Source: Pseudoflavonifractor sp. An184 (lineage in GTDB: Bacteria > Bacillota > Clostridia > Oscillospirales > Oscillospiraceae). From it: DNA of 40,879 nucleotides. Numbering within the stretch: position 1 is the stretch's first letter; every line of letters starts with the position of its first letter. Of this stretch, positions 12,377 through 29,698 are shown one piece after another. Under the pieces are notes generated by a model. That model saw only the letters and a program-made list of their open reading frames with translations, was not told where the DNA came from and did no database searches. A program made the position numbers and the translations under genes. The DNA lies in assembly GCF_002160305.1 (NCBI RefSeq), contig NZ_NFKI01000031.1, positions 1 to 40,879 on the forward strand, read 5' to 3'.

Positions 12377-12595
12377 GACACGGTCCTCTTGTTTATTGAT
12401 TTAACGGTATTTTACTGATGGTGTGCACAGTATAACATAACAAATTGTGCAAAGATTTTAATTATTTCTTAATTCCAGCTTCTTACCGCCCGCCAGAGTC
12501 AAAGAAGCGCCGGGCCGCTTACGGCCCTTTCCCACCTGTTGCCGCTGTTCAGAGATAGCTAGCAAATCTGGCTCGTACAGTCGATGGAACGCAAA
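12377..12595. other. Non-coding stretch upstream of the hypothetical gene
   Basis: These bases carry no recognisable gene. The part next to the 12376 start is AT-rich and may hold its promoter; the rest leads to the displaced guaA terminator. Confidence 0.4.
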
Positions 12596-12633
12596 AAACC
12601 CGCAGAGCCCGATCTGATGGGCTCTGCGGGTTT
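12590..12633 (-). terminator. Native guaA terminator, displaced 15 kb by the island
   Basis: A perfect 15-bp stem (12596-12610 with 12619-12633, minus-strand arm AAACCCGCAGAGCCC) with an 8-base loop; on the minus strand the descending arm runs into TTTTTTGCG. It lies 10 bases from the core repeat that copies the end of guaA (TGGGAATAA). Before insertion it would have followed the guaA stop codon directly. Confidence 0.85.
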
Positions 12634-12643
12634 GAAATTCTAA

Positions 12644-12656
12644 TTATTCCCACTCG
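12644..12656. mobile_element. Left attachment site (attL core) of the guaA island
   Basis: TTATTCCCACTCG is identical to 27874-27886, the last four codons of guaA including its stop, read on the minus strand. The identity ends at both sides (A/C before, C/A after). Position beside the stranded guaA terminator identifies it as the distal junction. Confidence 0.85.
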
Positions 12657-12887
12657 CCGAGTTAAATCCATTTCTAAACTTTTTTGTATAGGGAATTTAA
12701 TTCGTCGTGGTTTTATTTGATGCAGATTATCCTTATCCTAAGGTCTATTCGGACTTTTGCTATCAAAAATCTATCCGGGCCATCCTATCAAGGGTTTTGC
12801 TTGAGACGGACGATTGGGTGGCTTAGGAGTATTATAGCATGATTTTATCGAATTTTCCATAGAAATTTCATTTTGCCTAATCAGACA
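12657..12887. other. Left end of the island, possible integrase arm sites
   Basis: No gene. It contains GCTATCAA (12759-12766), CCTATCAA (12784-12791) and CAAGGGTTTTGC (12789-12800), close copies of which occur near the right end (27787-27805 and 27840-27850). A segment rich in GGGTGG (12813-12825) is repeated in inverted orientation at 27737-27748. These are candidate integrase arm-binding sites. Confidence 0.4.
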
Positions 12888-13595
12888 TTACTCGCTCATA
12901 TAATCCAGCATTTGCTGATTCAGGGTTTCCTTTACTACTCGCCACTCCGGAAAAAAGGTATCCATATACTTCTGGAATTGCTCGTTGTGATTTCGCTCCA
13001 GCAGGTGTACCAATTCATGGGTCACAACATAAGCGAGACACTCTGGAGTTTTCTTTGCAAGCTGGAGGTTAATCCAAATTCTTTTCCGGTCTATATTGCA
13101 GGTTCCCCACTTGGTACGCATGTTTTTGACCTTCCACTCATATGCATGGACACCTACAACCTGTTCACATTTTTGAACTACTTCCGGCAGCTTGCTTTTT
13201 AGCTGCTCCCGATACCAATCATTCAAAACACGCTCGCGCTGCTCCGGGGTGCTTTCAGGCCGCACTTGTAAAATCAGATGCCCGCCTGTAAGGGATACCT
13301 CATTCCTAACATTTGAGTATTGCACATCCAAACGATAACGCCGCCCCCAGACATAGTAACTCTCGCCAGTCACATACTGTCGCTTTGTTTGACGTGCTTG
13401 AGCCTCAAAGCTCGCACGCTGCTTTTTAATCCAGGAAATTCTGGATACCGCAAACATTCGGATCGCGTCATCCCCAGCAGAGTGCGGTACAGTAATTTGG
13501 ACTTTCCCATCGGGCGGCAGAACGCGGATGTACATATTCTTGATGTTCTTTTTTGTAACGGCAATACTCATGTTGCCGATTTGCAGTTCATCCAC
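12888..13595 (-). CDS. DUF45/YgjP-like zinc metallopeptidase
   Basis: A 235-residue soluble protein of the YgjP/DUF45 group of gluzincin-like metallopeptidases. The zinc signature HELVH appears in VVTHELVHLLERNHNEQF near residue 190, with the typical upstream block KNMRTKWGTCNIDRKRIWINLQL. The start is a GTG at 13595 that shares one base with the hsdR stop codon (TAGTG), so it is translationally coupled as the last gene of the restriction operon. Such peptidases are repeatedly found beside type I hsdR genes; their role there is not settled. A function in turnover of the restriction complex would be inference. Confidence 0.85.
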   Translation of the reverse strand: MDELQIGNMSIAVTKKNIKNMYIRVLPPDGKVQITVPHSAGDDAIRMFAVSRISWIKKQRASFEAQARQTKRQYVTGESYYVWGRRYRLDVQYSNVRNEVSLTGGHLILQVRPESTPEQRERVLNDWYREQLKSKLPEVVQKCEQVVGVHAYEWKVKNMRTKWGTCNIDRKRIWINLQLAKKTPECLAYVVTHELVHLLERNHNEQFQKYMDTFFPEWRVVKETLNQQMLDYMSE

Positions 13596-16500
13596 TAGAA
13601 TTCACTCTGCTCCTTTACCAATGCAAGCAACTGATCGGCTTCCTGGTCATCTTTTACGACAGCACGAATAGCCCGCCAGATTTTACGCTCTTTGATTTTG
13701 CTTCCCCGGAAATTGTCCTGTTTGCTTGACATGACTGCGTCATATATCTGATTGGCAACAGCCGTATCCCCATTAAGATGGTCATAAAAGGCTCGCTTGG
13801 CAGCACTCTCCCGGATTTCCGGAGGATATTCTGCGCCGCTTTCCGGCTTATGTACCTTTCTTGCCAGTTCCACAATCTGACGCAAATACTCCTCATAGTT
13901 GATCACGTCATTTTTGCGCTTTTCAATCAATTCTCGAAGAAGCGCAGACATCTTCTCGTAGTATTTGGGGTTACTTTGGGTTCTTTCAACAATTTCCTTG
14001 CCAATATTGTTTTCAATAGTCTCTGCAACTGCTTCCTGCTCTTTGGGTGTGGAGGCAGGCATATCCTTCAGCGCGGAAATCCCGTTGTCTACCAGCAGCT
14101 CGACCAGTGTTGCTCCTCCAAAAGAGGTCAACACACGACTGGGATCAGCCGACAAATAGGTATCGATTAAATGGCGCATGTCCGGATCATATTTCTTCAA
14201 ATCCACATAGTCACCGCTGGCCAGACGCACATCGTCACGCACCTTGATGTAGTAGGTAACTTCTCTCTCCAGCGCTTTGATCTGTTCCACAGTATAGTGG
14301 TACTTTTCCTGTAATTCGCCCGATACTTCACCAAAAGCGCGAAGAGCTGTCGCTGACAGATTGTAAAGCTGTTCCCGCTTAGGCATATTCTCTTCCAATT
14401 CATCCAAGTCAAAGGCTTCGGTATTGGTACCGCAGAAATAATGGTAGTAGTCCACCATATCTTTAGGTGGAGCTACAGGCTCGCACAGCGCGCGCAGAGC
14501 TTCCAGTGAATCCTCCAACTGTTCCTTAGCCTTGTCCAAGCGATCTGTCAGCAGGCCGGAGACATCTTCCTTATCGTAGCTGTCAAATGCTTCGGAAGTA
14601 TAGTCTGCAACCGCATTTTCCAAGGAGCGAAACAGGTCTTTGTAGTCAATAATATATCCAAATTCCTTATCTTCACCATCCAGGCGATTGACACGGCAGA
14701 TTGCCTGGAACAAGCCATGGTCTCGCATAGACTTATCAATATACAGATAAGTGGCAGGCGGAGCATCAAAGCCCGTCAGCAGCTTGTCCACCACGATCAG
14801 CAGTTTCATCTGTTCCGGCTGCTTGATAAACTTTTCCTTGACCTCCTTTTCAAATGCCTTCGGGTCTTTTCCACCCAGCATCTTCATGTAGATCTCGTAT
14901 TGCTCCACCGCCTCGGTCTCGCCATCATCACCTACGGTTTCAGTGCGAATATCGCCCACCGCCGGTTCGTAAGAGGTCACGATAGCGCACTTCCCCTTCA
15001 GCTCGGTCTCCTGGAACAATTCATAAAATTTGCACGCCTGATAGATACTGCCAGCCACCAGCATAGCATTACCCCGCCCATCGTGCAGGCGTGGTTTTGT
15101 CTCCATATCGAAAACAATATCCGCTACAATCTGTCCCAATCGGGCCTTGGAACTGAACATCTTTTGCAGATTGCCCCAACGCTGTTTCAGCTTAGCTTTT
15201 GCCACACCGGTCAGCCCGCGCGTTTTTGCCTCAAACCAGGCGTCGATCCGATCCTGCTGGACAACATTCTGCTCCACCTCTCGGGCCTCATAACGCAAAT
15301 CCAGAACTACCTTATCCCGCACCGCTTCATCAAACTTGTAGCGATGAATATAAGGGCCAAATACCTCCAGACTGGTCTCCTTATCCTTTTTCATCAATGG
15401 AGTACCGGTGAAACCGATAAAGGTGGCATTCGGCAAAATGGTTTCCATCGCTTTGTGGAGCTTGCCGGATTGGGTACGGTGACATTCATCCACAAAGACA
15501 TAGAAATCGCCTTTGGGAGAAAAGTTTTCCGGCAGCGAGCGTTTCAGCTCCTCAATAAATCCAGTATAATCGGACTCGCCGCTTTTGCCTCTGTTTTTCT
15601 TGCCAAACTTGTGAATCAGGGAGCACATCATGACAGGCGAGGTGTCGTTGATCTTCTGAATCAATTCGCTTCCCCGGCGAATACGGACAATGCTCTCATT
15701 GACCCCGGCAAACACCTGCTCGATCTGCACATCCAGCTCGTCCCGGTCGGTGATAATCAGAATACGGCTGTCAGAAATATTTTCCTTAATCCACTTGCTG
15801 AGCCACACCATGGTCAAGGATTTTCCGGAACCTTGGGTGTGCCAGATAATCCCGCCATCATGACGCCGCACAAAATCCCGCGCTGCCATATTGCCAAAGA
15901 ACTGATTAGGCCGACAGGTCTTTTTCACTCCGCTGTCAAATACGATAAAATTGTGCAGCAGCTCTACAAGCCGCTCTTTCCGGCACAGAGAAATCAGGTT
16001 TTTGTCCAGACGCAGGGGATATTTTTCGATTTGAGTGCGTACCGCTACGGAAACCTCATCTTTGGCATTGGGATCTTCTTTCCAGGAAAGATAATACTTT
16101 TCTGGTGTGCCGGTGGTACCGTAACGCGCCCCCTCCGAATCATTGCCAGCCAGGACAAGCCCAATGGTGGCAAAGAACTGCATGATCATATCCGGGCGCT
16201 GGTTGGTCAGGTTCTGGCGGATGCCCTCCGACATGGAAACTGTGCTGCGCTTCAGCTCAATGACGGCAAAAGCGATGCCGTTGATGTACAGCACCAAATC
16301 AGGGCGCTTGTGCTTGATGGTTACTTCCTCAGCGATGTAAAAATCATTTTCAAGGGGATGCTCCCAATCCACAAACTGGACTGTGACCTTATGCTGGCCG
16401 ACAGACTCGCTGACCTTGACGCCGTAGCGCAGCTTTTTATAGGTCTGCTCATTCAAGTCGTAAAGGTTCACCGACTGATCTCCGGCAGCATCCTGCAGCT

Positions 16501-16687
16501 CCTTCAAGGCGCGGCTGATAAGTACCGGCGAATAGCCCTTGCGGATCAGAAACTTCGTCAGCAGTTCGGTTTCAATATTGGAGTTTTTCCGCTCGGTGAA
16601 ATCGCCCAGATAAGTATAACCGAGTTCCTGGGCAAATAGCTTTATGACACGCTTCTGCGTGGCTTTTTCCCGTTGTCCAACAGCCAT
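13595..16687 (-). CDS. hsdR: Type I restriction enzyme, R subunit (HsdR)
   Basis: A 1030-residue motor-nuclease subunit that translocates DNA and cuts it when the HsdMS complex meets unmodified sites. The N-terminal nuclease domain shows the PD-(D/E)xK arrangement (RPDLVLY with Asp near 130, then ELK near 144-146). The helicase core has Walker A TQGSGKS (284-290), motif II VDECH (near 400) and motif III FTGTP (near 425). Full length for the family, with no frame disruption. The start ATG at 16687 uses AAGGAGG placed inside the last codons of hsdS, two bases after whose stop it begins. It follows hsdM and hsdS in one operon. Confidence 0.95.
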   Translation of the reverse strand: MAVGQREKATQKRVIKLFAQELGYTYLGDFTERKNSNIETELLTKFLIRKGYSPVLISRALKELQDAAGDQSVNLYDLNEQTYKKLRYGVKVSESVGQHKVTVQFVDWEHPLENDFYIAEEVTIKHKRPDLVLYINGIAFAVIELKRSTVSMSEGIRQNLTNQRPDMIMQFFATIGLVLAGNDSEGARYGTTGTPEKYYLSWKEDPNAKDEVSVAVRTQIEKYPLRLDKNLISLCRKERLVELLHNFIVFDSGVKKTCRPNQFFGNMAARDFVRRHDGGIIWHTQGSGKSLTMVWLSKWIKENISDSRILIITDRDELDVQIEQVFAGVNESIVRIRRGSELIQKINDTSPVMMCSLIHKFGKKNRGKSGESDYTGFIEELKRSLPENFSPKGDFYVFVDECHRTQSGKLHKAMETILPNATFIGFTGTPLMKKDKETSLEVFGPYIHRYKFDEAVRDKVVLDLRYEAREVEQNVVQQDRIDAWFEAKTRGLTGVAKAKLKQRWGNLQKMFSSKARLGQIVADIVFDMETKPRLHDGRGNAMLVAGSIYQACKFYELFQETELKGKCAIVTSYEPAVGDIRTETVGDDGETEAVEQYEIYMKMLGGKDPKAFEKEVKEKFIKQPEQMKLLIVVDKLLTGFDAPPATYLYIDKSMRDHGLFQAICRVNRLDGEDKEFGYIIDYKDLFRSLENAVADYTSEAFDSYDKEDVSGLLTDRLDKAKEQLEDSLEALRALCEPVAPPKDMVDYYHYFCGTNTEAFDLDELEENMPKREQLYNLSATALRAFGEVSGELQEKYHYTVEQIKALEREVTYYIKVRDDVRLASGDYVDLKKYDPDMRHLIDTYLSADPSRVLTSFGGATLVELLVDNGISALKDMPASTPKEQEAVAETIENNIGKEIVERTQSNPKYYEKMSALLRELIEKRKNDVINYEEYLRQIVELARKVHKPESGAEYPPEIRESAAKRAFYDHLNGDTAVANQIYDAVMSSKQDNFRGSKIKERKIWRAIRAVVKDDQEADQLLALVKEQSEF

Positions 16688-16689
16688 CT

Positions 16690-18492
16690 TTATCCCTCCT
16701 TGTCAGGGAATAGTTCTTGGCAGTGTTTGATGGCTCGCTGAATATCTGCGTCCTTGAAATAAGCCTTTTTCAGCTTATCTCTCCATTCTTTATTGGAATG
16801 GATCAAGTCTTTAATCGAGGCTACGGAAGTTTCCTTACCTTCCCGCCGCAAGTCGCAGATGGCCATATCCACCGTTGCCAAAAGCTCCAGTTCATTGACA
16901 CTTGTGTACTGGAACTGCGACACCAGCCAATCCACATCCCCCTGCTTTCCCCAGTCCTGCAAATAGGTCAACGCCTGCTGCATCTGCACACCTTTTTCAA
17001 AACGGCTGCCCTTTTCGCTTCTTTTGACCTGGATATACTTGTTTTTCTGAGCAATCGGCTCGCCACCTTTATAGCGGATCTCATCAGCGTATGGACCGGC
17101 CGCTTTTTTATGGAAGGCAGAAATATCCGCCTGCTCCTTGCGGCGAACCAGATAGAGCAGCTTCTGAACTTTTTTGCGCCCCAGGGGATACTTCTCGGAA
17201 TAGAATGCATTCACAATTCCTGCAATCATGACCGCATCATCAAAATGCTGATTGTGTGTCGGTTGATGCTGTTTTTCCCGAACCATGTGTGCCTCCGGCG
17301 ACTTTTTGACATCTGCATCTACCAGCCGAATCCGTCCGGTGAGCAGTTCCTGCATCATGCCCTGCTTGATCTGTTGATACTTTGCCAGCTTCTTTTCCAA
17401 CTGCTCAATTTCACTGTCCATATCAGAGAGAACTTGAGCAACTGCCTGTTGTTCAGGAACTTCTGGCATATAGATTTCGAGATTTGAAATCAGCCCTTTT
17501 GTTAATCCTCCGCGACCGCCATCACCAGAAGATAATTCTCTCAAACTTTCATACATACTGTCGATGATATAATACAGAAACCGAGAATCAAATTTTTTAT
17601 CGTTAGGATAAATTGCTGCAATCGACTGATTCGTGCATAGCGAAATATAATTATACGCTGCCGTTCCTCGAGTTTTTCCTTGTCCAGCAAGCCCAATCAA
17701 AACACAGTATTTAGGAATTAAATGCGCACTTGAGTTTTGCATTCCCTTCTGTGTAATTCTCCCCTCAACATCGTAAATCTTTTTGTTATTAAGTTCTCCC
17801 GAACTCATCCATGGAATGCTTCCACCCCAATATTCTGATATTGTGGTGCTAGGAGTTCCGCCAGAGTAAATTTCTGTCATTTCTCCTAAGCGAAATTGAT
17901 TCCATTCCCCAGAAAACTCCGGCAGGCGTTTTTTACCGGTGAGCAGTTCCTGCATAGTCCCCTGCTTGATGGCTTTCTTTTTCTCAATCAGCTTTTGCAG
18001 GGAGGAAATCAGGCTATCTACATCGGAAAGGGCTTCCGCAATAGCGGCTTGTTCTTCTAATGGTGGAAGTAATATTTCCGTATCACAGATAATTCCATTA
18101 TACAATCTTGAAATCGTACTTCCTTCAGATGAAGCCCACTTTATAACTTTGTAATAATGGGCCAGATAATCGTTACAAAGCTGGCTCTTATCAATTTTAA
18201 GCCAAACAATATTCGAATCTTGAAAATAAGCGGGACGCCCGTCAAATACAACGGTTCTGCCCAATGTTCCTGCTGCCGAAATGAGCACATCCCCTTTTTC
18301 CGGGTATGAATATTTAGCCTTATATTCTTCGTATAATTGGCTCGATATATAGGCATCAGCTTCTTTTCCAAACGTGCCTATTTTGTAAAATGGAATATTT
18401 CCAATTTTACTGGTCTGATGCGCAAAAATACGTTTACACATGCAAACTTCTGCAACTTCACCCAGCTTTTTTGTTTTCCATCCGTTCACCAT
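16690..18492 (-). CDS. hsdS: Type I restriction specificity subunit (HsdS) with ~190-residue C-terminal extension
   Basis: A 600-residue protein. Residues 1-405 have the HsdS plan: a first target recognition domain, a conserved coiled coil (EQAAIAEALSDVDSLISSLQ to MQELLTGKKRL), a second recognition domain (from about 200) and a second coiled coil (EQQAVAQVLSDMDSEIEQL to MQELLTGRIRL). Typical HsdS proteins stop there, at about 400 residues. Here about 190 more follow, starting near FDDAVMIAGIVNAFYSEKYP and GRKKVQKLLYLVRR, which recalls the Panacea/SocA-like (DUF4065) domain seen in antitoxins and defence genes; this match is tentative. The ATG overlaps the hsdM stop by 7 bases (ATGGTGA). The two coiled-coil regions share a 20-base identical DNA repeat. 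Confidence 0.9.
   Translation of the reverse strand: MVNGWKTKKLGEVAEVCMCKRIFAHQTSKIGNIPFYKIGTFGKEADAYISSQLYEEYKAKYSYPEKGDVLISAAGTLGRTVVFDGRPAYFQDSNIVWLKIDKSQLCNDYLAHYYKVIKWASSEGSTISRLYNGIICDTEILLPPLEEQAAIAEALSDVDSLISSLQKLIEKKKAIKQGTMQELLTGKKRLPEFSGEWNQFRLGEMTEIYSGGTPSTTISEYWGGSIPWMSSGELNNKKIYDVEGRITQKGMQNSSAHLIPKYCVLIGLAGQGKTRGTAAYNYISLCTNQSIAAIYPNDKKFDSRFLYYIIDSMYESLRELSSGDGGRGGLTKGLISNLEIYMPEVPEQQAVAQVLSDMDSEIEQLEKKLAKYQQIKQGMMQELLTGRIRLVDADVKKSPEAHMVREKQHQPTHNQHFDDAVMIAGIVNAFYSEKYPLGRKKVQKLLYLVRRKEQADISAFHKKAAGPYADEIRYKGGEPIAQKNKYIQVKRSEKGSRFEKGVQMQQALTYLQDWGKQGDVDWLVSQFQYTSVNELELLATVDMAICDLRREGKETSVASIKDLIHSNKEWRDKLKKAYFKDADIQRAIKHCQELFPDKEG
17336..17355. repeat. 20-bp direct repeat inside hsdS, copy 1
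   Basis: CCGGTGAGCAGTTCCTGCAT is identical to 17936-17955, exactly 600 bases (200 codons) away, and CCTGCTTGAT follows in both. It encodes the MQELLTG end of each conserved coiled coil. In-frame spacing would let recombination remove or swap one recognition domain. Confidence 0.85.
17936..17955. repeat. 20-bp direct repeat inside hsdS, copy 2
   Basis: Second copy of the repeat at 17336-17355, in the same frame and orientation. Confidence 0.85.
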
Positions 18493-20936: not shown

Positions 20937-20980
20937 CGGTACCTCTCCGTTCTCTTTTTAAATTCCTGTCAGGTTCCCAT

Positions 20981-21970
20981 TTACTCCTCTGGGGGAACGG
21001 GGATGTACACCATTTTCAGGGGGATCATTTTGCGGTATTTGACACTGAGCTGGTCGTAATATTTCAAGACCAGATCCACAAGTTCTGTGCCGTTAATGCC
21101 GCGAATAATAGGGGTGTTATCCAGGTATTTCTGCGCATTTTTGGTATAGTTGGATAGTGTCACAAACAGGCCATAATCTCCTTCACGCATAGCACCTTTC
21201 AGAGACTGGATGGTAGTCTCTTTAATATCTCCATCCTGGCTTTTGACCTGGACAACAATGCGGGGCGGTAGCTCATCTTTATAGGCGGTAATGTCGATAC
21301 CGCTGTCTCCACCATGCGGAGACAGGATCGTGCGGTAGCCCATGGCCTGCAAAAGATTTGCGACAAACGGCTCCAGATCATAGCCTTTCAGATTTTTGCT
21401 CAGCTCTTTTAAAATAAAATCTCGGGTAGCCTCGATAATTTCATCCGCCGTTTGTGCCACTGTCTCATCGGTATCCGGCTCCATGATATTACCTTTGAAG
21501 TCTTTATCTAGCGCCTTCAAATACTCATCCGCGTAGTTCTTCACCAAGAAAAAAGTCAATGCCGATCCTACTTCATGCAGAGCCCCTTGCGAAAAAGCCG
21601 TACGAGGCAGATGTTTGAGCCACTTTACTTTCCGACGATTGTGATACTGTGCAGCTGTACTATCATAAAAATAGGCGCTCTCAACGATTCCAATATTGAT
21701 TTTACGGTCGATCTTAGATGGGAACACGACATAATCGCCTTCTCGCACTTCATGAACAAACCGGTACAGCATTCCAGCACTTGTGGCAATCGAACCTTTT
21801 TTAGCATCCGGATAGGTCGCAATATATTTTTCTTTGTAGGCATCACGAGATGCACTTATGACCGACAAGTCGCCCATCTCTTCCCAGCCAATTGCAATTA
21901 GATTCTGATGCAAAAAAAGGGGATCGTCCATCGTATGAATTCCCCAAACTGTTTTGTTTGCTGCTGCCAT
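20981..21970 (-). CDS. Mrr-type restriction endonuclease with N-terminal PUA/EVE-like domain
   Basis: A 329-residue protein. The C-terminal domain (about 185-300) is an Mrr catalytic domain: LEPFVANLLQAMGYRT, GGDSGIDI (Asp 226) and VVQVKSQ (Gln 241, Lys 243), the D...QxK form of the PD-(D/E)xK nuclease site. The N-terminal 150 residues (VWGIHTMDDPLFLHQNLIAI, GDYVVFPSK, INIGIVES) look like a PUA/EVE-like module of the kind that reads modified bases, which would make this a type IV enzyme cutting modified foreign DNA. That substrate is inference. I chose ATG 21970 (MAAANKTVWG) because GGAG lies 10 bases upstream. It is embedded in the type I operon upstream of hsdM. Confidence 0.8.
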   Translation of the reverse strand: MAAANKTVWGIHTMDDPLFLHQNLIAIGWEEMGDLSVISASRDAYKEKYIATYPDAKKGSIATSAGMLYRFVHEVREGDYVVFPSKIDRKINIGIVESAYFYDSTAAQYHNRRKVKWLKHLPRTAFSQGALHEVGSALTFFLVKNYADEYLKALDKDFKGNIMEPDTDETVAQTADEIIEATRDFILKELSKNLKGYDLEPFVANLLQAMGYRTILSPHGGDSGIDITAYKDELPPRIVVQVKSQDGDIKETTIQSLKGAMREGDYGLFVTLSNYTKNAQKYLDNTPIIRGINGTELVDLVLKYYDQLSVKYRKMIPLKMVYIPVPPEE

Positions 21971-22073
21971 CACAGCCACACTCCTATCCAATCTTTCGCA
22001 GCTTTTCAGCTGCAAAGGTCTTGTGTCCCGAAATTTACCTTCAAATATCAAACCACTTTGTCAAAATTCATGC

Positions 22074-22283
22074 TTATTTTTCTTCCGGAACAAACTCCAG
22101 AATATCGTCCACGCCACACTCCATCACGCGACAAATCTTCTCGATGCTTTCGATGGAAACATACTCGTTGCGCTTTAGGCGGGTGATAATATTGGCACTA
22201 AAACCGGCCTTCTCTTTTAGCTGTGCATTGCTTATCTTTTTATCAATCATCAGGTGGAATAAGCGGTCATAACAAATCGCCAT
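22074..22283 (-). CDS. Small Cro/C1-type HTH regulator
   Basis: A 69-residue single-domain helix-turn-helix protein (LKEKAGFSANIITRLKRNEY is the recognition region). The ATG at 22283 is preceded by GGAGGG about 7 bases upstream; an upstream ATG in frame has no ribosome site and lacks family support. Small XRE proteins of this kind often act as controller proteins timing restriction genes, and it lies directly upstream of the Mrr-like and hsd genes, so that role is likely but not shown. Confidence 0.85.
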   Translation of the reverse strand: MAICYDRLFHLMIDKKISNAQLKEKAGFSANIITRLKRNEYVSIESIEKICRVMECGVDDILEFVPEEK

Positions 22284-22348
22284 TTTAGTCCCTCCAAAGC
22301 AAGAAATGCTTGGATTTATTTTATCACACTTTCGTGAAAAACTCAACT

Positions 22349-22816
22349 TTATGTCGAATCATTATGCTTTATCACTGTTATGAAAAGAGAGCCTTTCTTT
22401 ACTCGCCTTTGAGCATGCTCCAGTAACTCCCGCGCATTGCTGGCGGGGTGCCACGCATAGGCGATGAGGTAGTCTACATGATCCACAACATAGCGATTTG
22501 CTCTCACGATTGCGACCTTGCGCGGAACGCTTTCCATCCCTGGTGGATAGAAGGTGCTGTCAAATCCATCTGGAGTTGGGATGGGCCGCTCTGCCGGATG
22601 ATATGACAATAGCAAAGTGAGCTTCACTTCTGGGTAGAAACGCTTTGCTTCTTTGACTGCTGACGCTGCAAGACGGTCAAATCCGCCGTAGTGGCCAACG
22701 ATAAATTCTGTAACGCCATATTCCAAAATGTGCTGCTCCACAACCGCATACAATGCCGGGTAAATTGCCTCCGATGTTTCCCTGTGACCGATGAAAAAAC
22801 AGCTTTTTCCTCCCAA
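22349..22816 (-). CDS. SLOG-family (YpsA/DUF1273-like) nucleotide-ligand protein
   Basis: A 155-residue soluble protein with Rossmann-like features of the SLOG superfamily: CFFIGHRETSE at the N terminus, VGHYGGFDRLAASAVKEAK (glycine-rich loop plus acidic residue) and DYLIAYAWHPASNARELLEHA. SLOG proteins bind or process nucleotide-derived ligands, and several take part in phage-defence signalling. The start is a TTG at 22816 with AAGGAGGGAG 7 bases upstream. It is the first gene of the restriction operon and lies divergent from an HTH regulator. Its position suggests a sensor role in defence, which is inference; similar genes also occur in mobile elements without restriction genes. Confidence 0.75.
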   Translation of the reverse strand: MGGKSCFFIGHRETSEAIYPALYAVVEQHILEYGVTEFIVGHYGGFDRLAASAVKEAKRFYPEVKLTLLLSYHPAERPIPTPDGFDSTFYPPGMESVPRKVAIVRANRYVVDHVDYLIAYAWHPASNARELLEHAQRRVKKGSLFITVIKHNDST

Positions 22817-22844
22817 ATTTCTCCCTCCTTTTAGTTGTGTTTAT

Positions 22845-22904
22845 CGTTAAAATTATACGATATAAATGATTAAATCACAACGATTTATCAAAGTATAATT
22901 TACG
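22845..22904. promoter_or_regulatory. Divergent promoter/operator with imperfect inverted repeat
   Basis: The left arm 22845-22868 and right arm 22881-22904 are imperfect inverted copies sharing GTATAATTT and ATTTAT blocks. Both arms contain a TATAAT -10 box, one facing each way. The minus-strand promoter is TTGTGA (22875-22880), 17 bases, TATAAT (22852-22857) and would drive the restriction operon. The plus-strand -10 is 22894-22899 for the HTH gene; its -35 is weak. A dimeric HTH protein is the expected binder. Confidence 0.65.
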
Positions 22905-22931
22905 AAGAACACAAGCAAAGGAGTGATGCAG

Positions 22932-23237
22932 GTGAAGGATATTCTCTCGGTTATAACCGCGTATCGAGAGGAGCGGGGCTGGACAGAGTATCAGCTTGCA
23001 GAACGCTCCGGTTTGCCGCAATCCACGATCTCCTCATGGTATCGCAAGAATATGGTTCCGACCATTCCATCCCTGGAGAAAATCTGCACAGCCTTTGGCA
23101 TTACGCTATCTCAACTGTTTGCCGAAGAAGATGCACCGGTTTCCTTAACTGAGGCGCAGAAAAAGCTTCTGGAACGCTGGTCAAGACTAAGTGAAGAACA
23201 GCAGGCTGTTGTATTTGCTTTGATTGATAAGATGTAA
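22932..23237 (+). CDS. XRE-family HTH transcriptional regulator
   Basis: A 101-residue regulator. An XRE helix-turn-helix spans about residues 12-60 (YQLAERSGLPQSTISSWYRK is the DNA-reading part) and a C-terminal helical tail follows (LTEAQKKLLERWSRLSEEQQ). I chose GTG at 22932 because AAGGAG lies 8 bases upstream; ATG at 22926 is too close to that site. It is divergent from the SLOG-led restriction operon and probably binds the inverted repeat at 22845-22904. A strong terminator follows. Confidence 0.85.
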   Translation: MKDILSVITAYREERGWTEYQLAERSGLPQSTISSWYRKNMVPTIPSLEKICTAFGITLSQLFAEEDAPVSLTEAQKKLLERWSRLSEEQQAVVFALIDKM

Positions 23238-23290
23238 AAAATCCGTCAGAGGCGCACCCTTTAGAGTGCTGCTTCTGGCGGATTTTCTTT
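23238..23290 (+). terminator. Terminator after the XRE regulator gene
   Basis: A long hairpin (arm AAATCCGTCAGAGG near 23239-23253, returning at about 23269-23285 as GCTTCTGGCGGATTTT) starts right after the stop codon and ends in TTTTCTTT. The A-rich left flank could serve the convergent minus-strand gene as well. Confidence 0.75.
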
Positions 23291-23294
23291 GCCA

Positions 23295-23540
23295 TCAATC
23301 TAACGGAGTTTTCTTTGTTACTGCTTTTAGATACAATTCAGGGTCCCCATTCAAAATCAGTTCGGCATAAGACAGCGGATCATTATAGATCAGCCAGTCC
23401 AGTTCTGACCGCTGGTACATACTGTTCGCTACCTCGTTCTCCACGGCGGTACAGTCGATGGACAACAGGGTTCCATCTTCCATGCACAGCTCCACGCAGG
23501 CAGTGTCCGGGTTGAACTCACAGGACAAAATCTTTCTCAT
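23295..23540 (-). CDS. DUF6061-like small protein
   Basis: An 81-residue protein beginning MRKILSCEFNPDTACVELCM and containing DGTLLSIDCTAVENEVANS. It resembles the DUF6061 family of small proteins found on Firmicutes mobile elements; no function is known. GGAGG lies 8 bases before the ATG at 23540. Confidence 0.7.
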   Translation of the reverse strand: MRKILSCEFNPDTACVELCMEDGTLLSIDCTAVENEVANSMYQRSELDWLIYNDPLSYAELILNGDPELYLKAVTKKTPLD

Positions 23541-23609
23541 ACTCGTTACCTCCCAATACTTGAATTTCAGTTGATTTTCCGCAGCGGCACAAGGGCCGTT
23601 TCGGTTGTT

Positions 23610-23834
23610 TTAGATACAGGCAAGCAATGCGTGTGGATAGCCACACACAAATCCGGCAAGCAATGCGAGTGTTAATACACACTCACATTTCCTGCCGTCT
23701 GCTTGTTGAGGGCAGCGCCCCCAAGCCCCTTCTGAACACAGAATTTCATTCTGTGGCTGCGCGTTCTCCGAACGCTTTTTGCCCCTGTACCCGGTGCCCT
23801 GTTTCGGGGCATAGGGTGTCGTGAATCGCGACAT
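23610..23834 (-). CDS. Doubtful 74-codon open frame over hairpin repeats
   Basis: The frame begins MSRFTTPYAPKQGTGYRGKK and ends in a hydrophobic, Cys-containing segment encoded by the two hairpin repeats at 23621-23684. A GAGG lies immediately before the ATG, too close for a good ribosome site. It may be a real small gene carried with the element or just an open frame across a structured region. No family is recognised. Confidence 0.25.
   Translation of the reverse strand: MSRFTTPYAPKQGTGYRGKKRSENAQPQNEILCSEGAWGRCPQQADGRKCECVLTLALLAGFVCGYPHALLACI
23621..23684. repeat. Two tandem CAAGCAATGCG-hairpin units
   Basis: CAAGCAATGCG occurs at 23621-23631 and 23657-23667, 36 bases apart. Each copy runs into a 6-bp hairpin: GTGTGG-ATAG-CCACAC and GAGTGT-TAATAC-ACACTC. 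The stems differ in sequence but keep pairing. The unit layout resembles origin or relaxase/Rep binding sites. Confidence 0.6.
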
Positions 23835-23880
23835 CCTCTGATACTTTTAGGGTGTCCTAAAATGGGGCATCCTCCTTGAA

Positions 23881-23913
23881 GATGGGGTGGCAAAATACCA
23901 CCCCATCTTTTTC
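23881..23913 (+). terminator. Plus-strand terminator-like hairpin
   Basis: A 10-bp perfect stem (GATGGGGTGG with CCACCCCATC, loop CAAAATA) is followed by TTTTTCTTTCC. No plus-strand gene precedes it. It may shield the region between DUF6061 and the RepA-like gene or act as part of an origin. Confidence 0.5.
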
Positions 23914-23917
23914 TTTC

Positions 23918-23992
23918 CGCGACGGTGGCGACGGTCGCAACGGTGCTGGGAGCACCCCTCAAAACACCGTCGCGACCGTTGCGAGCGTCGCG
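23918..23992. repeat. GC-rich iteron-like inverted array (CGACGGT / CGCAACGGT units)
   Basis: Two 28-base arms (23918-23945 and 23965-23992) consist of 9-base units of the types CGACGGTNG and CGCAACGGT; the right arm is inverted and has its units in a different order. A 19-base spacer separates them. The array abuts the stop codon of the RepA-like gene, as iterons often do in Rep modules. Confidence 0.5.
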
Positions 23993-23994
23993 CT

Positions 23995-25170
23995 TTACTC
24001 GATTACTTCAAACGCAGGTGCTTCCACCACCATGTAGGTCAGCCGGATACGCCGCCCGGCGTGCTTGGTTTTGTTCTCATACTTTACCTGATGTTCTTCC
24101 AACAGGCGGCTGGCATTCACATTCAGATGCTTGGTGAGCCGATTTACCGCCATATCTGTTTGAATTGCCTGGGCCAGCTCGGTGGGACTGCCTTCCCATT
24201 CGCGGTTGTCAGCAGATACGATCTTTGCTACGGCTTCCAGTACCGGGTCTGGAGGCTGCTTCCAAAGCTCATTCTCTGCATGGTCAAGCCCCCAAACTAG
24301 GCTCTCTTGGTCTTTGCTCAGATACAACCGCTGATCCGGCTGGTCTCTGCCTACCACTTCCAAGGTGGCCCTGCTATCCGTCCGCTTTTCCTTCTGCATC
24401 AGGAGCGCACCATCCGCACAGCCCAGCAAGCCCGTGGTGCCGGAAATCATTTCAAAGCTATCTCCCGCAGGTTGCTTTCTGGTGTGGTGGACAATCAGGA
24501 CGCAAACGCCATATCGGTCAGCAAATTGCTTCAGCTTGCCGATTACCTCATAGTCGCTGGAGTAGCTGTAACTATCGCTCACTGCCTCCCGGACTTTTTG
24601 CAGGGTATCCACGATAATCAGCTTGGTATCACTGTGTTCCCGAACAAACTTTTCCAGCTGTTCATCTAGGCCACCACCGATCATTTTAGCGCTGGTAGCG
24701 AAGTGGAGGGAGCTTGTCCCCTCCACACCGAACATACGGAACATCCGGCGCTGCAGGCGGCTCTCGTCATCTTCCAGCGCCAGATAGAGAACCGTTCCCT
24801 GATGTACTTTGTAGCCCCACAGGTCTTGCCCGGTACTGACATGGTGGGCGATCTGTGCAACCAAGAAGGACTTGCCGATTTTGGGCGCTCCGGCAAGGAT
24901 GTACGCTCCTGTATAGAGCAGATTTTCAATCACCGCAGACTTGCCCTCGAACACATTGTCCATCAGCTCGTCCAGGGTCACAGTATGCAGGTAAGCTGGG
25001 TCGCTCATGCGGCGCATCTTTCGGTAAAGTTCCTCCAAATCTCTTCCTGGGGAATTGCTTTTTTCGTCCGGGTCTGGTATAGTGGTCTTGGAATTTTGAG
25101 AGATTGACTGCCCATCATCTGCGCCAACAGATGAGCCCTGGGCGGTCATTTTCTTTTTTTCATTGATCAT
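23995..25170 (-). CDS. RepA-like (AAA_25/RecA-fold) hexameric helicase ATPase
   Basis: A 391-residue ATPase of the RepA/AAA_25 type. Walker A is GAPKIGKS (94-101), Walker B is LIIVDT, and the block VCVLIVHHTRKQPAG is typical of the group. The last 80 residues probably form a winged-helix region. Related proteins unwind plasmid origins or act as accessory ATPases in integrative elements. The ATG at 25170 lies inside the end of the upstream gene (11-base overlap), with AGGAGG 9 bases before it, so the two are coupled. The iteron-like array directly downstream supports a replication role; this is inference. Confidence 0.8.
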   Translation of the reverse strand: MINEKKKMTAQGSSVGADDGQSISQNSKTTIPDPDEKSNSPGRDLEELYRKMRRMSDPAYLHTVTLDELMDNVFEGKSAVIENLLYTGAYILAGAPKIGKSFLVAQIAHHVSTGQDLWGYKVHQGTVLYLALEDDESRLQRRMFRMFGVEGTSSLHFATSAKMIGGGLDEQLEKFVREHSDTKLIIVDTLQKVREAVSDSYSYSSDYEVIGKLKQFADRYGVCVLIVHHTRKQPAGDSFEMISGTTGLLGCADGALLMQKEKRTDSRATLEVVGRDQPDQRLYLSKDQESLVWGLDHAENELWKQPPDPVLEAVAKIVSADNREWEGSPTELAQAIQTDMAVNRLTKHLNVNASRLLEEHQVKYENKTKHAGRRIRLTYMVVEAPAFEVIE

Positions 25171-25495
25171 AGGCGAAATCCTCCTGCATCCCGTTCATAA
25201 TGGTGGCGATCATCTGGATGGTGTCCAGCAGCTCGCCGTTTACGCCCTGCCCAGCTTCGATCCGGCGGAGTTCGTCCAGCACGGCGGCCAGCTGGTCCCG
25301 CAGGGCCTTGTAGACCCTGGGGTTGCCCTGGACCACCACATCCCGTTCCAGCAGCCGCCGGATGATGTAGTCCTGCTTGGTCAGGCCTGTGAGCTTCACC
25401 AGGGCTTCCAGATGGAGGTCTTCCTCCGCCGACACCCGGAAAGCCACCGTCTTGTTCCTCCAGCGGTTGTGGTTATCGTAGTTCTTCTTGGACAT
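25160..25495 (-). CDS. Ribbon-helix-helix (MobC/relaxosome-like) protein
   Basis: A 111-residue basic protein. The segment RNKTVAFRVSAEEDLHLEAL and KLTGLTKQDYIIRRLL fits a ribbon-helix-helix fold, as in plasmid mobilisation accessory (MobC-like) proteins; a helical tail follows. I chose ATG 25495 because GGGAG lies 9 bases upstream, rather than an ATG inside the integrase gene. It sits between integrase and the RepA-like gene in one operon. No relaxase is visible in the element. Confidence 0.7.
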   Translation of the reverse strand: MSKKNYDNHNRWRNKTVAFRVSAEEDLHLEALVKLTGLTKQDYIIRRLLERDVVVQGNPRVYKALRDQLAAVLDELRRIEAGQGVNGELLDTIQMIATIMNGMQEDFAYDQ

Positions 25496-25499
25496 TTTC

Positions 25500-26582
25500 T
25501 TACACTCCCTTCTCATTTTTCAGTGAATCCAGCTTATCGGCCATTTCCACCTGACGGGTGGGGAACAAATGAGCGTAGCGGTAGGTGATGTCGATGCTCT
25601 CGTGTCCTACGCGCTCCGCAATAGCCAGGGCAGTAAAGCCCATGTCGATCAACAAACTGATGTGGCTATGTCTCAAATCGTGTATGCGAATCCTTTTCAC
25701 CCCAGTTTGCTTGCAGCCACGGTCCATTTCCCGGTGAAGATAGCTTTTGCTGATGGGGAACATCCGGCTGTCCGGCTCCACGCCATAGAGCTGCTTAAGG
25801 TAGTCCTGAAGCTCGTCACAGAGAAACTGGGGCATCTGAATCACCCGGTTGCTCTTTGGTGTCTTGGGGGTGGTAATGACATCCTGCTTGTTGAGCCGCT
25901 GATAGGACTTATTGATGGTGAGGGTGCGCTTCTCAAAATCGAAGTCCGCCGGGGTCAAGGCCAGCAGCTCACCCTCCCGGATGCCGCACCAGTAAAGCAC
26001 CTCAAAGGCGTAGAAGGACAGCGGCTTATCCATCATGGCCTCGGAAAACTTAGTGTACTCCTCCCGGGTCCAGAACAGCATTTCCTTCCGCTCCTCCGCC
26101 CCCATGTTGCCCGCCTGCCGGGCCGGGTTGAGGTTCAGGCCGTAAAACCGGGCAGCATGGTTGAAAATTGCACTAAGTTGATTGTGAACGGTTTTAAGGT
26201 AAGTTTTTGACAGGGGTTTGCCGTGACAGTCCCGCATCTCCCGGATCTCGTTCTGCCAGCGCATAATGTCCTTGGCTGTGATCTCCGAAAGCTTCCGCTT
26301 GGCAAAATAGGGCAGGATTTTCTTTTTGATAATGCTCTCCTTGGTGAGCCAGGTGTTGAGCTTCAACTTGGGCTTAATGTCCCTCTCATAGAGGGCGACG
26401 AAGCTCTCGAAGGTCATGTTCACATCGGCCTGCTTTTCCATCAGGAACTCCCGTTCCCATTCCAGCGCCTCTCGCTTGGTGGCAAAGCCCCTTTTGAGCT
26501 TCTGCTGGCGCTCACCTTTCCAGTCGGTGTAGCGGAACTGCACATACCAGGTGCCGTTGTCCTTGTTCTTAAACGCTGCCAT
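25500..26582 (-). CDS. int: Tyrosine recombinase/integrase of the guaA island
   Basis: A 360-residue site-specific recombinase that inserts and excises the element at the 3' end of guaA. Residues 1-45 form the arm-type DNA-binding domain (GTWYVQFRYTDWKGERQQKL), about 55-150 the SAM-like core-binding domain, and 165-345 the catalytic domain with Arg 202 (GIREGEL), HDLRH (His 301, Arg 304), His 327 (GHES) and the nucleophile Tyr 336 (YRYAH). All catalytic residues are present. GGGGGAG precedes the ATG at 26582. It follows the excisionase-like gene by 2 bases. Confidence 0.95.
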   Translation of the reverse strand: MAAFKNKDNGTWYVQFRYTDWKGERQQKLKRGFATKREALEWEREFLMEKQADVNMTFESFVALYERDIKPKLKLNTWLTKESIIKKKILPYFAKRKLSEITAKDIMRWQNEIREMRDCHGKPLSKTYLKTVHNQLSAIFNHAARFYGLNLNPARQAGNMGAEERKEMLFWTREEYTKFSEAMMDKPLSFYAFEVLYWCGIREGELLALTPADFDFEKRTLTINKSYQRLNKQDVITTPKTPKSNRVIQMPQFLCDELQDYLKQLYGVEPDSRMFPISKSYLHREMDRGCKQTGVKRIRIHDLRHSHISLLIDMGFTALAIAERVGHESIDITYRYAHLFPTRQVEMADKLDSLKNEKGV

Positions 26583-26584
26583 GA

Positions 26585-26788
26585 TTACTCCCCCTTTCTC
26601 GCTGTTTCGGTTCTCGTGCCATAAAACTTCTCGTGGAAGAACTTGCGGTCGATCCGGCCGGAAATCGTGATGCAGCCGGTTTTCGCCAGTTCCTCGTTCA
26701 TCTGCCGGATGAGCTTATAGGCGTAGGGTACGGACACCCCCAGCTCCTCGGCCACTTCATTGACGCGCATAAAAATCTGGTTTGCCAT
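26585..26788 (-). CDS. xis: Excisionase-like small HTH protein
   Basis: A 67-residue protein with a MerR/excisionase-type helix-turn-helix (FMRVNEVAEELGVSVPYAYK followed by LIRQMNEELA) and a basic tail. Located directly upstream of the integrase and cotranscribed with it, it is the likely recombination directionality factor. GGAAGG precedes the ATG at 26788. Confidence 0.75.
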   Translation of the reverse strand: MANQIFMRVNEVAEELGVSVPYAYKLIRQMNEELAKTGCITISGRIDRKFFHEKFYGTRTETARKGE

Positions 26789-26929
26789 GATAAATACCTT
26801 CCTTTCTTAGTCGTTGGTGACTGTGGACTGCAAGCGTTGTGTTTCATAAATGCCTCCTTACTTATGTCCGCCACTTTTTCTCTGTTTCGCAACCAAAAAT
26901 CTGGCGGGCCATTTGATGCGCTATATTAT

Positions 26930-27056
26930 CTAAGCTTATATGCTTAGTATTCTTATGATACTATACATATAAGCTTAGTTCAAGCCTTTTAGAAGAAATA
27001 TTATTAAATAAATTTGCTTAGATTACCTTGACAACACTAAGCAAATATGCTATGTT
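26930..27056. promoter_or_regulatory. Divergent promoters and repeated operators between xis-int and the cI-like gene
   Basis: An inverted repeat CTAAGCTTATATG (26930-26942) / CATATAAGCTTAG (26966-26978) and another TTTGCTTAG (27013-27021) / CTAAGCAAA (27037-27045) share the half-site GCTTAG. The minus promoter is TTGAAC (26978-26983), 17 bases, TATCAT (26955-26960); its spacer holds one arm. The plus promoter is TTGACA (27028-27033), 17 bases, TATGTT (27051-27056), overlapping the second pair. This is a phage-like switch in which one regulator can control both directions. Confidence 0.75.
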
Positions 27057-27091
27057 TCATATAAGAACAACCATAGATGGGAGCTGGATGT

Positions 27092-27580
27092 ATGGCGATT
27101 GGCGAACGGATTCACTTTTTCCGTCTTCTGCGGGGGATGACACAGAAATATCTTGGTATGGCGCTGGGCTTCCCGGAGAAGTCTGCCGATGTGCGTCTTG
27201 CGCAGTACGAAACAGGGTCAAGAACCCCTAAGGCCGATCTGACTGCTGCCCTGGCGCAGGTACTGGATGTCTCGCCCCATGCCCTTTCCGTCCCGGATAT
27301 AGACTCCTATATAGGGCTCATGCACACCCTGTTTACCCTGGAGGACAACTACGGGCTGAAGATCACGGAGCAAGATAGTGAGCTTGCCTTGCAGGTGGAT
27401 TTTCGCAAAAACAAGGATGCTGCCCGGCTGCATGAGATGCTCTGGGCCTGGCGGGAACAGGCAGCCAAACTGGAGGCCGGTGAGATCTCCCAGGAGGAGT
27501 ACGACCGCTGGCGTTACCACTACCCGGAGTACGACAGCAGCCAAATCCGCGCCAAGGTGCCGCCGGAGGGTCTGATCTAA
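27092..27580 (+). CDS. XRE-family (cI-like) regulator of the island
   Basis: A 162-residue regulator with an N-terminal XRE helix-turn-helix (about 1-65; GERIHFFRLLRGMTQKYLGM, then RLAQYETGSRTPKADL) and a C-terminal helical region ending in HYPEYDSSQ. ATG 27092 has GGGAG 10 bases upstream. It is divergent from xis-int and is driven by a near-consensus promoter overlapped by GCTTAG operators, so it most likely represses excision and its own gene. Confidence 0.85.
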   Translation: MAIGERIHFFRLLRGMTQKYLGMALGFPEKSADVRLAQYETGSRTPKADLTAALAQVLDVSPHALSVPDIDSYIGLMHTLFTLEDNYGLKITEQDSELALQVDFRKNKDAARLHEMLWAWREQAAKLEAGEISQEEYDRWRYHYPEYDSSQIRAKVPPEGLI

Positions 27581-27873
27581 CCCTCTCACTTGTAGGCCAC
27601 GGGAAAGGCCGTTTGTTGCGTAAAATCAGAAAATTCAGATAAATGAGAGCAAAATAAAAAAGGTCTAACTGATCAGCAAAAATCAGTTAGACCTTTTACT
27701 TATGAATAAAAAGATAAGGATTTTTAGGCTACTCGCAAGCCACCCGATTTTTCTTTTCAAACTCAATAAATCGGGATTTGACGAGTGCTATCAATCTGCT
27801 ATCAAATGGGGATTTGAAAAATCAAAAAGTCAGTATTTTCAAGGGTTTGCGGGCCCTCATATCCACTTTTTGC
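27581..27873. other. Right end of the island, non-coding, possible integrase arm sites
   Basis: Between the regulator and the guaA stop lie a terminator hairpin, two GCTATCAA repeats (27787-27794, 27798-27805), CAAGGGTTTGC (27840-27850) and an inverted copy of the GGGTGG segment of the left end (27737-27748). No gene is visible. Confidence 0.45.
27658..27697. terminator. Bidirectional terminator at the right end of the island
   Basis: A perfect 16-bp stem (27658-27673 with 27682-27697, arm AAAAGGTCTAACTGAT) closes an 8-base loop. It is flanked by A runs on the left and TTTT on the right, so it can end both the regulator transcript and the guaA transcript, replacing the displaced native guaA terminator. 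Confidence 0.85.
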
Positions 27874-27886
27874 TTATTCCCACTCG
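27874..27886. mobile_element. Right attachment site (attR core) inside the guaA 3' end
   Basis: TTATTCCCACTCG repeats 12644-12656. On the minus strand it encodes the final residues of GMP synthase (E-W-E-stop), so recombination here leaves guaA intact. Confidence 0.85.
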
Positions 27887-29415: not shown

Positions 29416-29463
29416 AAGAGCACCCTTTCTTAAAAATTTTACCTGAGTTTTACTCCAGGATTC

Positions 29464-29514: not shown

Positions 29515-29518
29515 CAAT

Positions 29519-29599: not shown

Positions 29600-29616
29600 G
29601 CATACATTTTCTGGAG

Positions 29617-29642: not shown

Positions 29643-29655
29643 CGTATCCGGAAAA

Positions 29656-29686: not shown

Positions 29687-29698
29687 AAGTGTTTGGGT

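Follow-up and report, generated by a model that had tools for sequence, protein, structure and literature searches.

A 15-kb, probably mobile restriction-modification element placed exactly at the guaA stop codon in a gut bacterium

How does a gene keep the end of both its protein and its transcript when 15 kb of DNA come to lie directly behind its stop codon? The question is raised by guaA in the stretch of 40,879 bases analysed here (the window), in which a sequence-only reading had proposed a site-specific island at the guaA stop codon. This proposal is borne out by a 13-bp repeat, by the contrast in G+C content (48.6% in the island against 60.2% and 62.1% in the flanks) and by a family of related integrases linked to guaA. 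As had also been proposed, the 13-bp core, TTATTCCCACTCG, defines both junctions: it has exactly two copies in the window and none in the opposite orientation, and its proximal copy consists of the last codons and the stop codon of guaA (Table 1). The exact unit is 15,230 bp long and runs from 12657 to 27886, or equivalently from 12644 to 27873; the start given earlier, 12590, lies in host DNA. Chance was rejected as the origin of the repeat, as a shared word of at least 13 letters was found in only 6 of 5000 Markov shuffles of the 200 nt around each junction. Insertion into a tRNA gene was likewise rejected, the window containing no tRNA, and no known RNA family reached the gathering threshold at the junctions or upstream of guaA (11000-29500 and 29300-34400). 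On the other side of the balance, the sole near-identical relative among 64 genomes of the genus, G010, carries the same island in the same place, and an orthologous island-free site was found solely at the paralogue guaA2 in G008. From sequence comparison we regard the junctions and the target as established.

Table 1. Features of the island and its junctions (positions in the window)
Feature	Position	Strand	Basis or remark
Displaced host hairpin, first terminator-like site past the R-M operon	12596..12633	-	15 pairs
Core repeat, far (distal) junction	12644..12656	.	Repeat search
Distal arm-like repeats, imperfect (TGATAGC, TGATAGG on the minus strand)	12759..12790	.	Comparison
YgjP-like metallopeptidase, last gene of the R-M operon	12888..13595	-	Profile match
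HsdR	13595..16687	-	End-to-end profile match
HsdS with 200-aa C-terminal extension	16690..18492	-	Extension is a weak DarG-like match
HsdM	18486..20936	-	End-to-end profile match
Mrr-like restriction endonuclease	20981..22051	-	PADLOC PDC-S02
Cro/C1-type HTH protein	22074..22346	-	Profile match
SLOG-like protein	22349..22816	-	Weak YpsA match, 22.4 bits, below cut-off 27.7
XRE-type regulator	22923..23237	+	Profile match
DUF6061 protein	23295..23540	-	Profile match
oriT-like stretch with hairpin CACAGAATTTCATTCTGTG	23699..23779	.	Match to relaxase-adjacent sequence
AAA_25 ATPase	23995..25170	-	Profile match
NikA-like mobilisation accessory protein	25160..25516	-	Pfam NikA-like
Tyrosine integrase with arm-binding domain, full length (predicted)	25500..26582	-	Pfam Arm-DNA-bind_4, Phage_int_SAM_3, Phage_integrase
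Xis-like small HTH protein, 67 aa	26585..26788	-	HTH_17, 22.6 bits, below cut-off 27
XRE-type regulator, convergent with guaA	27077..27580	+	Pfam HTH_3
Head hairpin with T-tail, proposed replacement terminator	27658..27697	-	17 pairs, ~180 nt past the guaA stop
Proximal paired repeat TGCTATCAA x2, 11-bp period; putative integrase arm sites	27786..27805	.	Sequence comparison
Core repeat, guaA-side (proximal) junction	27874..27886	.	Holds the guaA stop codon
guaA, full-length GMP synthase, 513 aa, insertion target	27874..29415	-	Pfam GATase, GMP_synt_C

The cargo had been described as defence, rightly so: the island carries a type I restriction-modification (R-M) operon, a system predicted from profile matches in which hsdR, hsdM and hsdS are all full length, together with an Mrr-like nuclease.

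The island belongs to a broad family of elements at the end of guaA and is a new member of a known sort. Named loci are the best 80 of 161 confirmed integrase relatives, and among these 80 guaA ends within 3.5 kb upstream in 57 (within 1.7 kb in 55), 16 have the core without guaA there, five have neither, two of them with less than 1,300 nt upstream, and two are too short. A sister element occurs at different sites in G000 and G017, and its two copies match at 100% over 8,858 bp, a sign of recent movement. Other observations concern what such elements carry or adjoin: sister elements at guaA hold restriction systems and tetracycline-resistance genes, and, with regard to a plasmid origin, one plasmid record from Subdoligranulum variabile (OY725880.1) contains a 99.4% match adjoining a predicted tet(W).

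The claim that guaA is a known insertion site for integrative elements agrees with the descriptions of GIsul2, ATE-1 and streptococcal ICEs and IMEs. The available part of the GIsul2 report demonstrates that its tyrosine integrase excises and integrates at guaA, and GIsul2 and its relatives share with our island the guaA 3' end and the core letters (site GAGTGGGA; PMC9376610). GIsul2 is, however, gammaproteobacterial and carries sul2, and it is likened to the island by description. ATE-1 of Trueperella pyogenes and streptococcal ICEs, IMEs and islands also occupy the guaA 3' end, with repeats that hold the exact gene end, according to the available parts of their reports (PMC5704250, PMC5357655, PMC4701971, PMC12479173, PMC10383233); they live in other hosts, our island differs in having no relaxase and in its R-M genes, and here too the likeness is one of description only.

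The attachment site exceeds the core, since repeats with an 11-bp period lie inside both ends. We compared 64 guaA-side junctions, namely the window and 63 of the 80 best loci, the other 17 having been dropped because they show no strict core at 900-1700 nt. The proximal arm-like pair is present in 63 of these 64 junctions and in 4 of 400 random windows. The distal repeats of the island are spaced roughly as in other delimited elements, and distal and proximal arm classes agree at all 13 hand-listed ends, as judged by eye and with imperfect second copies in G000, G010, G020 and G011, as well as in 6 of 6 further loci. An automated scan for arm pairs missed arms evident by eye (e.g. in G017); its label of no arm pair was never the sole criterion.

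Two hairpins frame the island, one at its head, close to guaA, and one in the host DNA beyond its far end. Both appear in the list of minus-strand terminator-like sites, with folding z-scores against shuffles of -7.52 (head) and -6.65 (displaced). Since the window-wide scan for such sites is not enriched (21 sites against 17.3 expected), the weight lies on the comparison with relatives. In 60 of the 64 cases, four failing, the guaA-side junction is followed by a T-tailed stem of at least 12 pairs, against 0 of 320 shuffles and 11 of 315 windows drawn at random from these loci (7 of 315 once windows overlapping a junction are removed). These junctions are related, with 49 distinct 330-nt sequences among the 64 and 20 distinct hairpins, one of which occurs 20 times. 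Pairing is kept in 231 of 231 cells of the alignment, and 9 of 13 pairs show changes on both sides (shuffled mean 5.3, 9 being reached in 1 of 500), as do 42 cells (shuffled mean 12.6, 0 of 500; slid controls 1-7). The head hairpin is, across the sequences compared, a fixed part of the family, and in the family it seems to restore termination of guaA transcription; the earlier suggestion that it replaces a lost terminator thus finds support in both comparison and covariation. We found no description of a replacement terminator at such insertions in the openly accessible literature searched: the word terminator is absent from the available text of PMC4701971 and PMC5704250, and in the available parts of papers that combine the relevant terms it concerns other matters.

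It is quite possible, though we hold this tentatively, that the head hairpin is the terminator of the XRE gene only, or a shared bidirectional one, and that any benefit to guaA is incidental. Convergent genes often share one terminator, and this XRE gene, which converges with guaA, ends 78 nt before the hairpin, whose stem has T-runs on both strands. XRE relatives (29-82% identity where seen) occupy the matching position in other elements, and in 9 of 9 loci checked for its absence (L204, L211, L215, L216, L218-L222) an antisense relative of 29-33% identity was present. Set against this is the direction of the T-tail, the sole evidence here that favours guaA: in 20 distinct hairpins, chosen without regard to their tails, the T content of the tail in the guaA sense equals or exceeds that on the other strand in all 20 and strictly exceeds it in 16, a moderate bias with a mean of 7.85 against 6.25 T in 10 nt. 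A shared terminator would, moreover, serve guaA anyway.

The hairpin beyond the far end is terminator-like and belongs to the host, as the sequence-only reading held, but its orthologue is the terminator of a paralogue, guaA2. In G008, the one relative found with an orthologous left flank and without the island, this orthologue comes directly after guaA2, which is shortened; the gene order is carB-guaA2-hairpin, with roughly 230 bp of flank orthologous at 74% identity. The expected island-free relative with this hairpin directly after guaA was therefore seen, except that the gene there is guaA2. G031 has the order carB-guaA1-guaA2, the window has carB-guaA1-island-hairpin and its own genome contains no guaA2; from these gene orders, guaA2 has probably been lost from this genome. 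No T-tailed hairpin was found within 70 nt at any of six element-free guaA1 sites of the genus (G001, G003, G014, G022, G029, G035), a count that leaves out guaA2 of G012 (arm remnant), G058 (adjacent integrase of another family) and those loci whose sequence stops within some 110 nt. The earlier reading had looked to island-free relatives for its test, and by that test this result counts against the hairpin having been the terminator of this guaA. That it was nonetheless the old terminator of guaA1, guaA2 never having stood at the locus, would fit the gene order of the window and a genome without guaA2; given the order and the orthologous flank in G008, and the presence of both genes behind carB in G031, we consider this rather unlikely.

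The displaced hairpin is probably not idle, as it is the first terminator detected past the gene that closes the R-M operon. The last gene runs in the guaA sense at 11 of 13 far ends, with a terminator before the core in 1 of the 11, and at 6 of 7 further far ends, again with one terminator (1 of 6). The same detector thus finds a T-tailed hairpin at 2 of 17 guaA-sense far ends as against 59 of 64 heads, the yardsticks being heads and randomly placed windows (10 of 315) rather than ordinary gene ends. Since far ends mostly have no hairpin, cargo transcripts probably end at the displaced host hairpin or at that of the next island. The scarcity at far ends, and the position of the head hairpin beside the proximal arm repeats, could also be taken to mean that it is a DNA structure of the attachment site, serving recombination or protein binding. 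We judge this improbable, because a T-tail is present and because the letters vary while pairing is kept, a pattern more readily expected of an RNA stem than of a binding sequence. Reading the head hairpin as a terminator, we can put forward, at a little under even chances, a terminator relay. Elements of the kind that part a stop codon from its terminator would carry one terminator, at the head, and mostly none at the tail; the head hairpin would end transcription of the upstream gene or element, and the tail would borrow the next terminator downstream, either the displaced host hairpin or the head of a following element.

As for transfer, the oriT-like stretch is an 83% match over about 80 bp to sequence adjoining a MobA/VirD2-type relaxase gene in G000:C85, and its motif also adjoins such a gene in G003:C16. 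No relaxase family was found among the island proteins scanned; sister elements encode Mob_Pre-type relaxases. The island was rejected as an ICE, as no type IV secretion genes were found among the same proteins. The oriT-like stretch suggests mobilisation by a helper, a reading that draws on this one match and the shared motif. IMEs devoid of a relaxase are a described class ('oriT and RAF'; MGIs mobilised by SXT ICEs) in the available part of PMC5704250, and the island is like them in having an accessory protein and an oriT-like stretch that resembles that of a relaxase-bearing element, although here the oriT is a candidate drawn from the short match.

Integrases, XRE regulators and AAA ATPases occur in phage satellites too, and all three are present here. 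The integrase has matches in 2275 phage records, of which just two exceed 60% identity, both short unannotated faecal contigs. A remnant prophage or phage satellite, rather than an element dependent on conjugation, is nevertheless very improbable in our view: no capsid, terminase, portal or packaging family was found among the island proteins scanned (PHROGs left out), and the NikA-like gene and the Mob_Pre-type relaxases of sister elements argue against it.

We consider it likely that 12657-27886 is an integrative, probably mobilisable element with its own head terminator, cargo transcripts ending at the host hairpin and transfer by a helper. The tyrosine integrase would recombine the 13-bp core in the final guaA codons with the matching copy that the element carries, and because the cores are identical the guaA protein and stop codon would be unchanged. 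Insertion would part the stop codon from the host hairpin downstream, and the T-tailed hairpin of the element would compensate for this displacement. With no far-end terminator of its own seen, the R-M operon probably ends at the displaced hairpin; where elements stand in tandem, the head hairpin of the following one would take over this role. Transfer, if any, would probably rely on a MobA/VirD2-type relaxase from a helper, which together with the NikA-like protein would act at the oriT-like stretch.

Insertion at the guaA end has been considered mild because the coding sequence is restored (PMC10383233, in the part available), and insertion at the 3' end of a gene has been said to minimise the impact on the host (PMC4701971, likewise in part). 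The family at the guaA end seems to restore termination too, the compensatory base changes pointing to selection, and seems to employ the old terminator of the host for its cargo. If the relay is true, units with different cargo could line up one after another past a housekeeping gene with no transcription running from one into the next, and the attachment module would include the head hairpin as a portable part kept by selection. This would give a simple, testable rule for the stacking of islands behind a housekeeping gene, and the core, arm pair and hairpin together offer a practical marker for the boundaries of such elements.

The 13-bp core word TTATTCCCACTCG occurs only twice in the window, once at each end of the island, and the leftward-reading guaA ends in one of the two copies. 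The island spans 15,230 bp and has a G+C content of 48.6%, compared to 60.2% and 62.1% in its flanks. Its proteins were annotated using Pfam, PADLOC and NCBIfam, and no relaxase, secretion or phage structural families were found among them with these resources. The insertion at the guaA stop codon was correctly spotted in the sequence-only reading.

Features of the island and its junctions in the window, genes being ordered inwards from guaA
Feature	Position (nt)	Order from guaA	Remarks
Island	12657-27886, or equally 12644-27873
Core copy, near end	27874-27886		guaA ends here
Head hairpin	27658-27697
XRE regulator		1
Xis-like HTH protein		2	profile match below cut-off
Tyrosine integrase		3
NikA-like protein		4
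AAA_25 ATPase		5
Intergenic stretch with hairpins		between AAA_25 ATPase and DUF6061
DUF6061 protein		after intergenic stretch
Two HTH proteins		after DUF6061
SLOG-like protein		after two HTH proteins	profile match below cut-off
Mrr-like nuclease		after SLOG-like protein	PADLOC PDC-S02
HsdM, HsdS, HsdR	hsdS 16690-18492	in that order, after Mrr-like nuclease
YgjP-like metallopeptidase		after HsdR	last listed gene
oriT-like stretch	23699-23779
Core copy, far end	12644-12656
Displaced host hairpin	12596-12633

Relatives of the island integrase (E <= 0.001), many of them distant, were found in 62 of the 64 genus genomes. One scan of named genomes confirmed 161 integrase loci, of which the best 80 were retained. 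Of these best 80, 57 have guaA ending no more than 3.5 kb upstream from the integrase gene, and 55 of the 57 no more than 1.7 kb, the remaining two having a core closer in; 16 have a core without guaA there, five have neither (two of these with less than 1,300 nt upstream) and two were too short to judge. Record names include Pseudoflavonifractor, Flavonifractor, Faecalibacterium, Holdemania, Selenomonas and Mitsuokella. Tandem pairs of elements were observed behind guaA, or behind its shortened paralogue guaA2, in four genus genomes (G017, G020, G005 and G061).

We compared 64 guaA-side junctions: the one in the window plus those of 63 named loci, the other 17 of the 80 having been dropped because no strict core lay at 900-1700 nt. 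A head hairpin with a stem of at least 12 pairs and a T-rich tail was present at 60 of the 64, compared with none of the 320 Markov shuffles and 11 of the 315 random windows, though the 60 are non-independent (20 distinct hairpins, one occurring 20 times; 49 distinct 330-nt junction sequences among the 64). When random windows overlapping the junction were excluded and tails were judged by the stricter far-end criterion, 7 of 315 held such a hairpin. For covariation, 19 hairpins taken from 25 listed were aligned, giving 18 distinct rows. Pairing in the 13-pair stem was kept in 231 of 231 cells, which is partly built in because the sequences had been selected for hairpin formation. Two-sided changes, seen at nine stem pairs (shuffled mean 5.3; nine attained in 1 of 500) and in 42 cells (shuffled mean 12.6; reached in 0 of 500; slid controls 1-7 cells), are the stronger evidence for the predicted stem. 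In 20 hairpins picked irrespective of their tails, the 10-nt tail held on average 7.85 T in the guaA sense versus 6.25 on the other strand, the guaA-sense tail being T-richer in 16 and equal in four. We read the head hairpin as a predicted terminator facing guaA, probably a bidirectional one and possibly shared with the convergent XRE gene.

The attachment site extends beyond the core. In most of the 24 guaA-side ends that were aligned, two direct repeats at a period of 11 bp come next after the core, ahead of the hairpin; the second repeat is degenerate at the guaA2 near end of G012. The period-11 pair was detected in 63 of 64 junctions compared to 4 of 400 random windows. At far ends the repeats precede the end of the core by about 120 and 132 nt; in G000 (the genome holding the window), G010, G020 and G011 the second copy is imperfect. 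Far-end and near-end repeats were of the same class for all 13 hand-listed far ends, judged by eye, and for six of six further loci compared by script.

Of the 13 hand-listed far ends, among them the near-duplicates G000 and G010, 11 have a last gene oriented like guaA, as do six of seven further far ends that a script picked out of the 80 loci. An intrinsic terminator between this gene and the core was detected at one of the 11 (G061) and one of the six (locus L169). The same detector was positive at 59 of the 64 heads and in 10 of the 315 random windows; set against these two groups, the far ends resemble random DNA and not heads. Within 80 nt beyond the core, a T-tailed hairpin was present at 6 of the 13 (G000, G010, the G017 array end, G007, G060 and G011, where another element starts beyond the core) and at four of the seven. 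Six of the 13 double as the near end of a following element; five of these shared heads passed the near-end hairpin scanner and one (L080_2828) failed. At the far end in the window, the first hairpin met is the displaced host hairpin.

About 230 bp of window flank including this hairpin match G008 at 74%, and there the matching hairpin lies directly after guaA2, in the order carB-guaA2-hairpin. guaA2 encodes a GuaA paralogue of 429 aa whose glutaminase domain is shortened, the Pfam GATase match covering positions 2-76 of 190. The gene (e.g. L074:7205-8491 in G008) occurs in many genus genomes and also serves as an insertion site. In G031, where the order is carB-guaA1-guaA2 (guaA1 being the full-length gene), an element end follows guaA2. 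No guaA2 match was found in G000 or G010. The simplest account would be that guaA2 was lost from between two guaA ends at this locus, perhaps by recombination between cores. At element-free sites, counted with G012 and G058 left out, a T-tailed hairpin followed guaA1 within 70 nt at none of six genus sites (G001, G003, G014, G022, G029, G035) and followed guaA2 at two of five (present in G008 and G001; absent in G016, G029 and G035). These counts argue against a general rule of a hairpin after guaA.

Ten defence-like proteins were hand-chosen from three sister elements, of which two belong to G017 and one to G022; PADLOC matched seven of the ten, each to an R-M or PDC-S02 entry. Elements of G020, G060 and G000:C1 (another contig of the same genome) encode Tet(M)/Tet(W)-type proteins, and one G017 element encodes a metal-transporting ATPase. 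Between G000 and G010, island and flank align in blocks 93.1% and 96.7% identical. G010 carries another hsdS allele, which lacks the C-terminal extension and lies next to an extra ORF. This gene (compared at L072:17535-19897) diverges strongly from the window hsdS while the rest of the island aligns, the pattern that an exchange of the specificity gene would leave. The 200-aa C-terminal extension of the window HsdS weakly matches the antitoxin DarG, scoring 33 bits where the cut-off is 250.

The sister element in G000:C1 (L081:2693-11550) shares 8,858 bp at 100% identity with a G017 element, which is the second unit behind guaA1; cross-contamination of assemblies may be the source of this identity. 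The G000:C1 copy lies away from guaA and its far junction, inspected by eye, shares only GAG of the core. Its Tet(M)/Tet(W)-type protein scored above cut-off; the relaxase matched Mob_Pre above cut-off in the G017 copy and NCBIfam MobV below cut-off in the G000 copy. Four consecutive ORFs nearby (L112:10718-18698) resemble what we take to be a Wadjet (JetABCD) system. An integrase relative at 99.4% adjoins a predicted tet(W) in a record labelled as a Subdoligranulum plasmid (OY725880.1, 55145-62224; L223).

The oriT-like stretch of the window element, itself without a relaxase, matches at 83% DNA adjoining a MobA/VirD2-type relaxase gene in G000:C85. Allowing up to two mismatches, a 37-base motif taken from the window stretch occurs in six genus genomes out of 64. 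In four of them (G000, G010, G017 and G061) it lies in guaA elements; in G003:C16 it adjoins a MobA/VirD2-type relaxase gene, and in G078 it is close to the start of a contig. The G000:C85 site diverges too far for the pattern to match; a reverse transcriptase gene (L126:10689-12761) lies directly upstream of the relaxase gene there.

In the available text of the papers cited here, the guaA 3' end is an established insertion site, with integrase activity demonstrated for GIsul2 at GAGTGGGA (PMC9376610). It is used by streptococcal ICEs whose repeats contain the exact gene end (PMC4701971), by IMEs (PMC5357655, PMC7563491, PMC12479173) and by a pneumococcal island that restores the coding sequence (PMC10383233); ATE-1, IMEs without a relaxase and tandem arrays are also described (PMC5704250). 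IME_Rho_tet is a separate, serine-recombinase family (PMC12904643). Our literature search found, in the available text of its sources, no description of a conserved replacement terminator in such elements. The element is of an ordinary, already known type at an established site, with an unexpected conserved part, the head hairpin.
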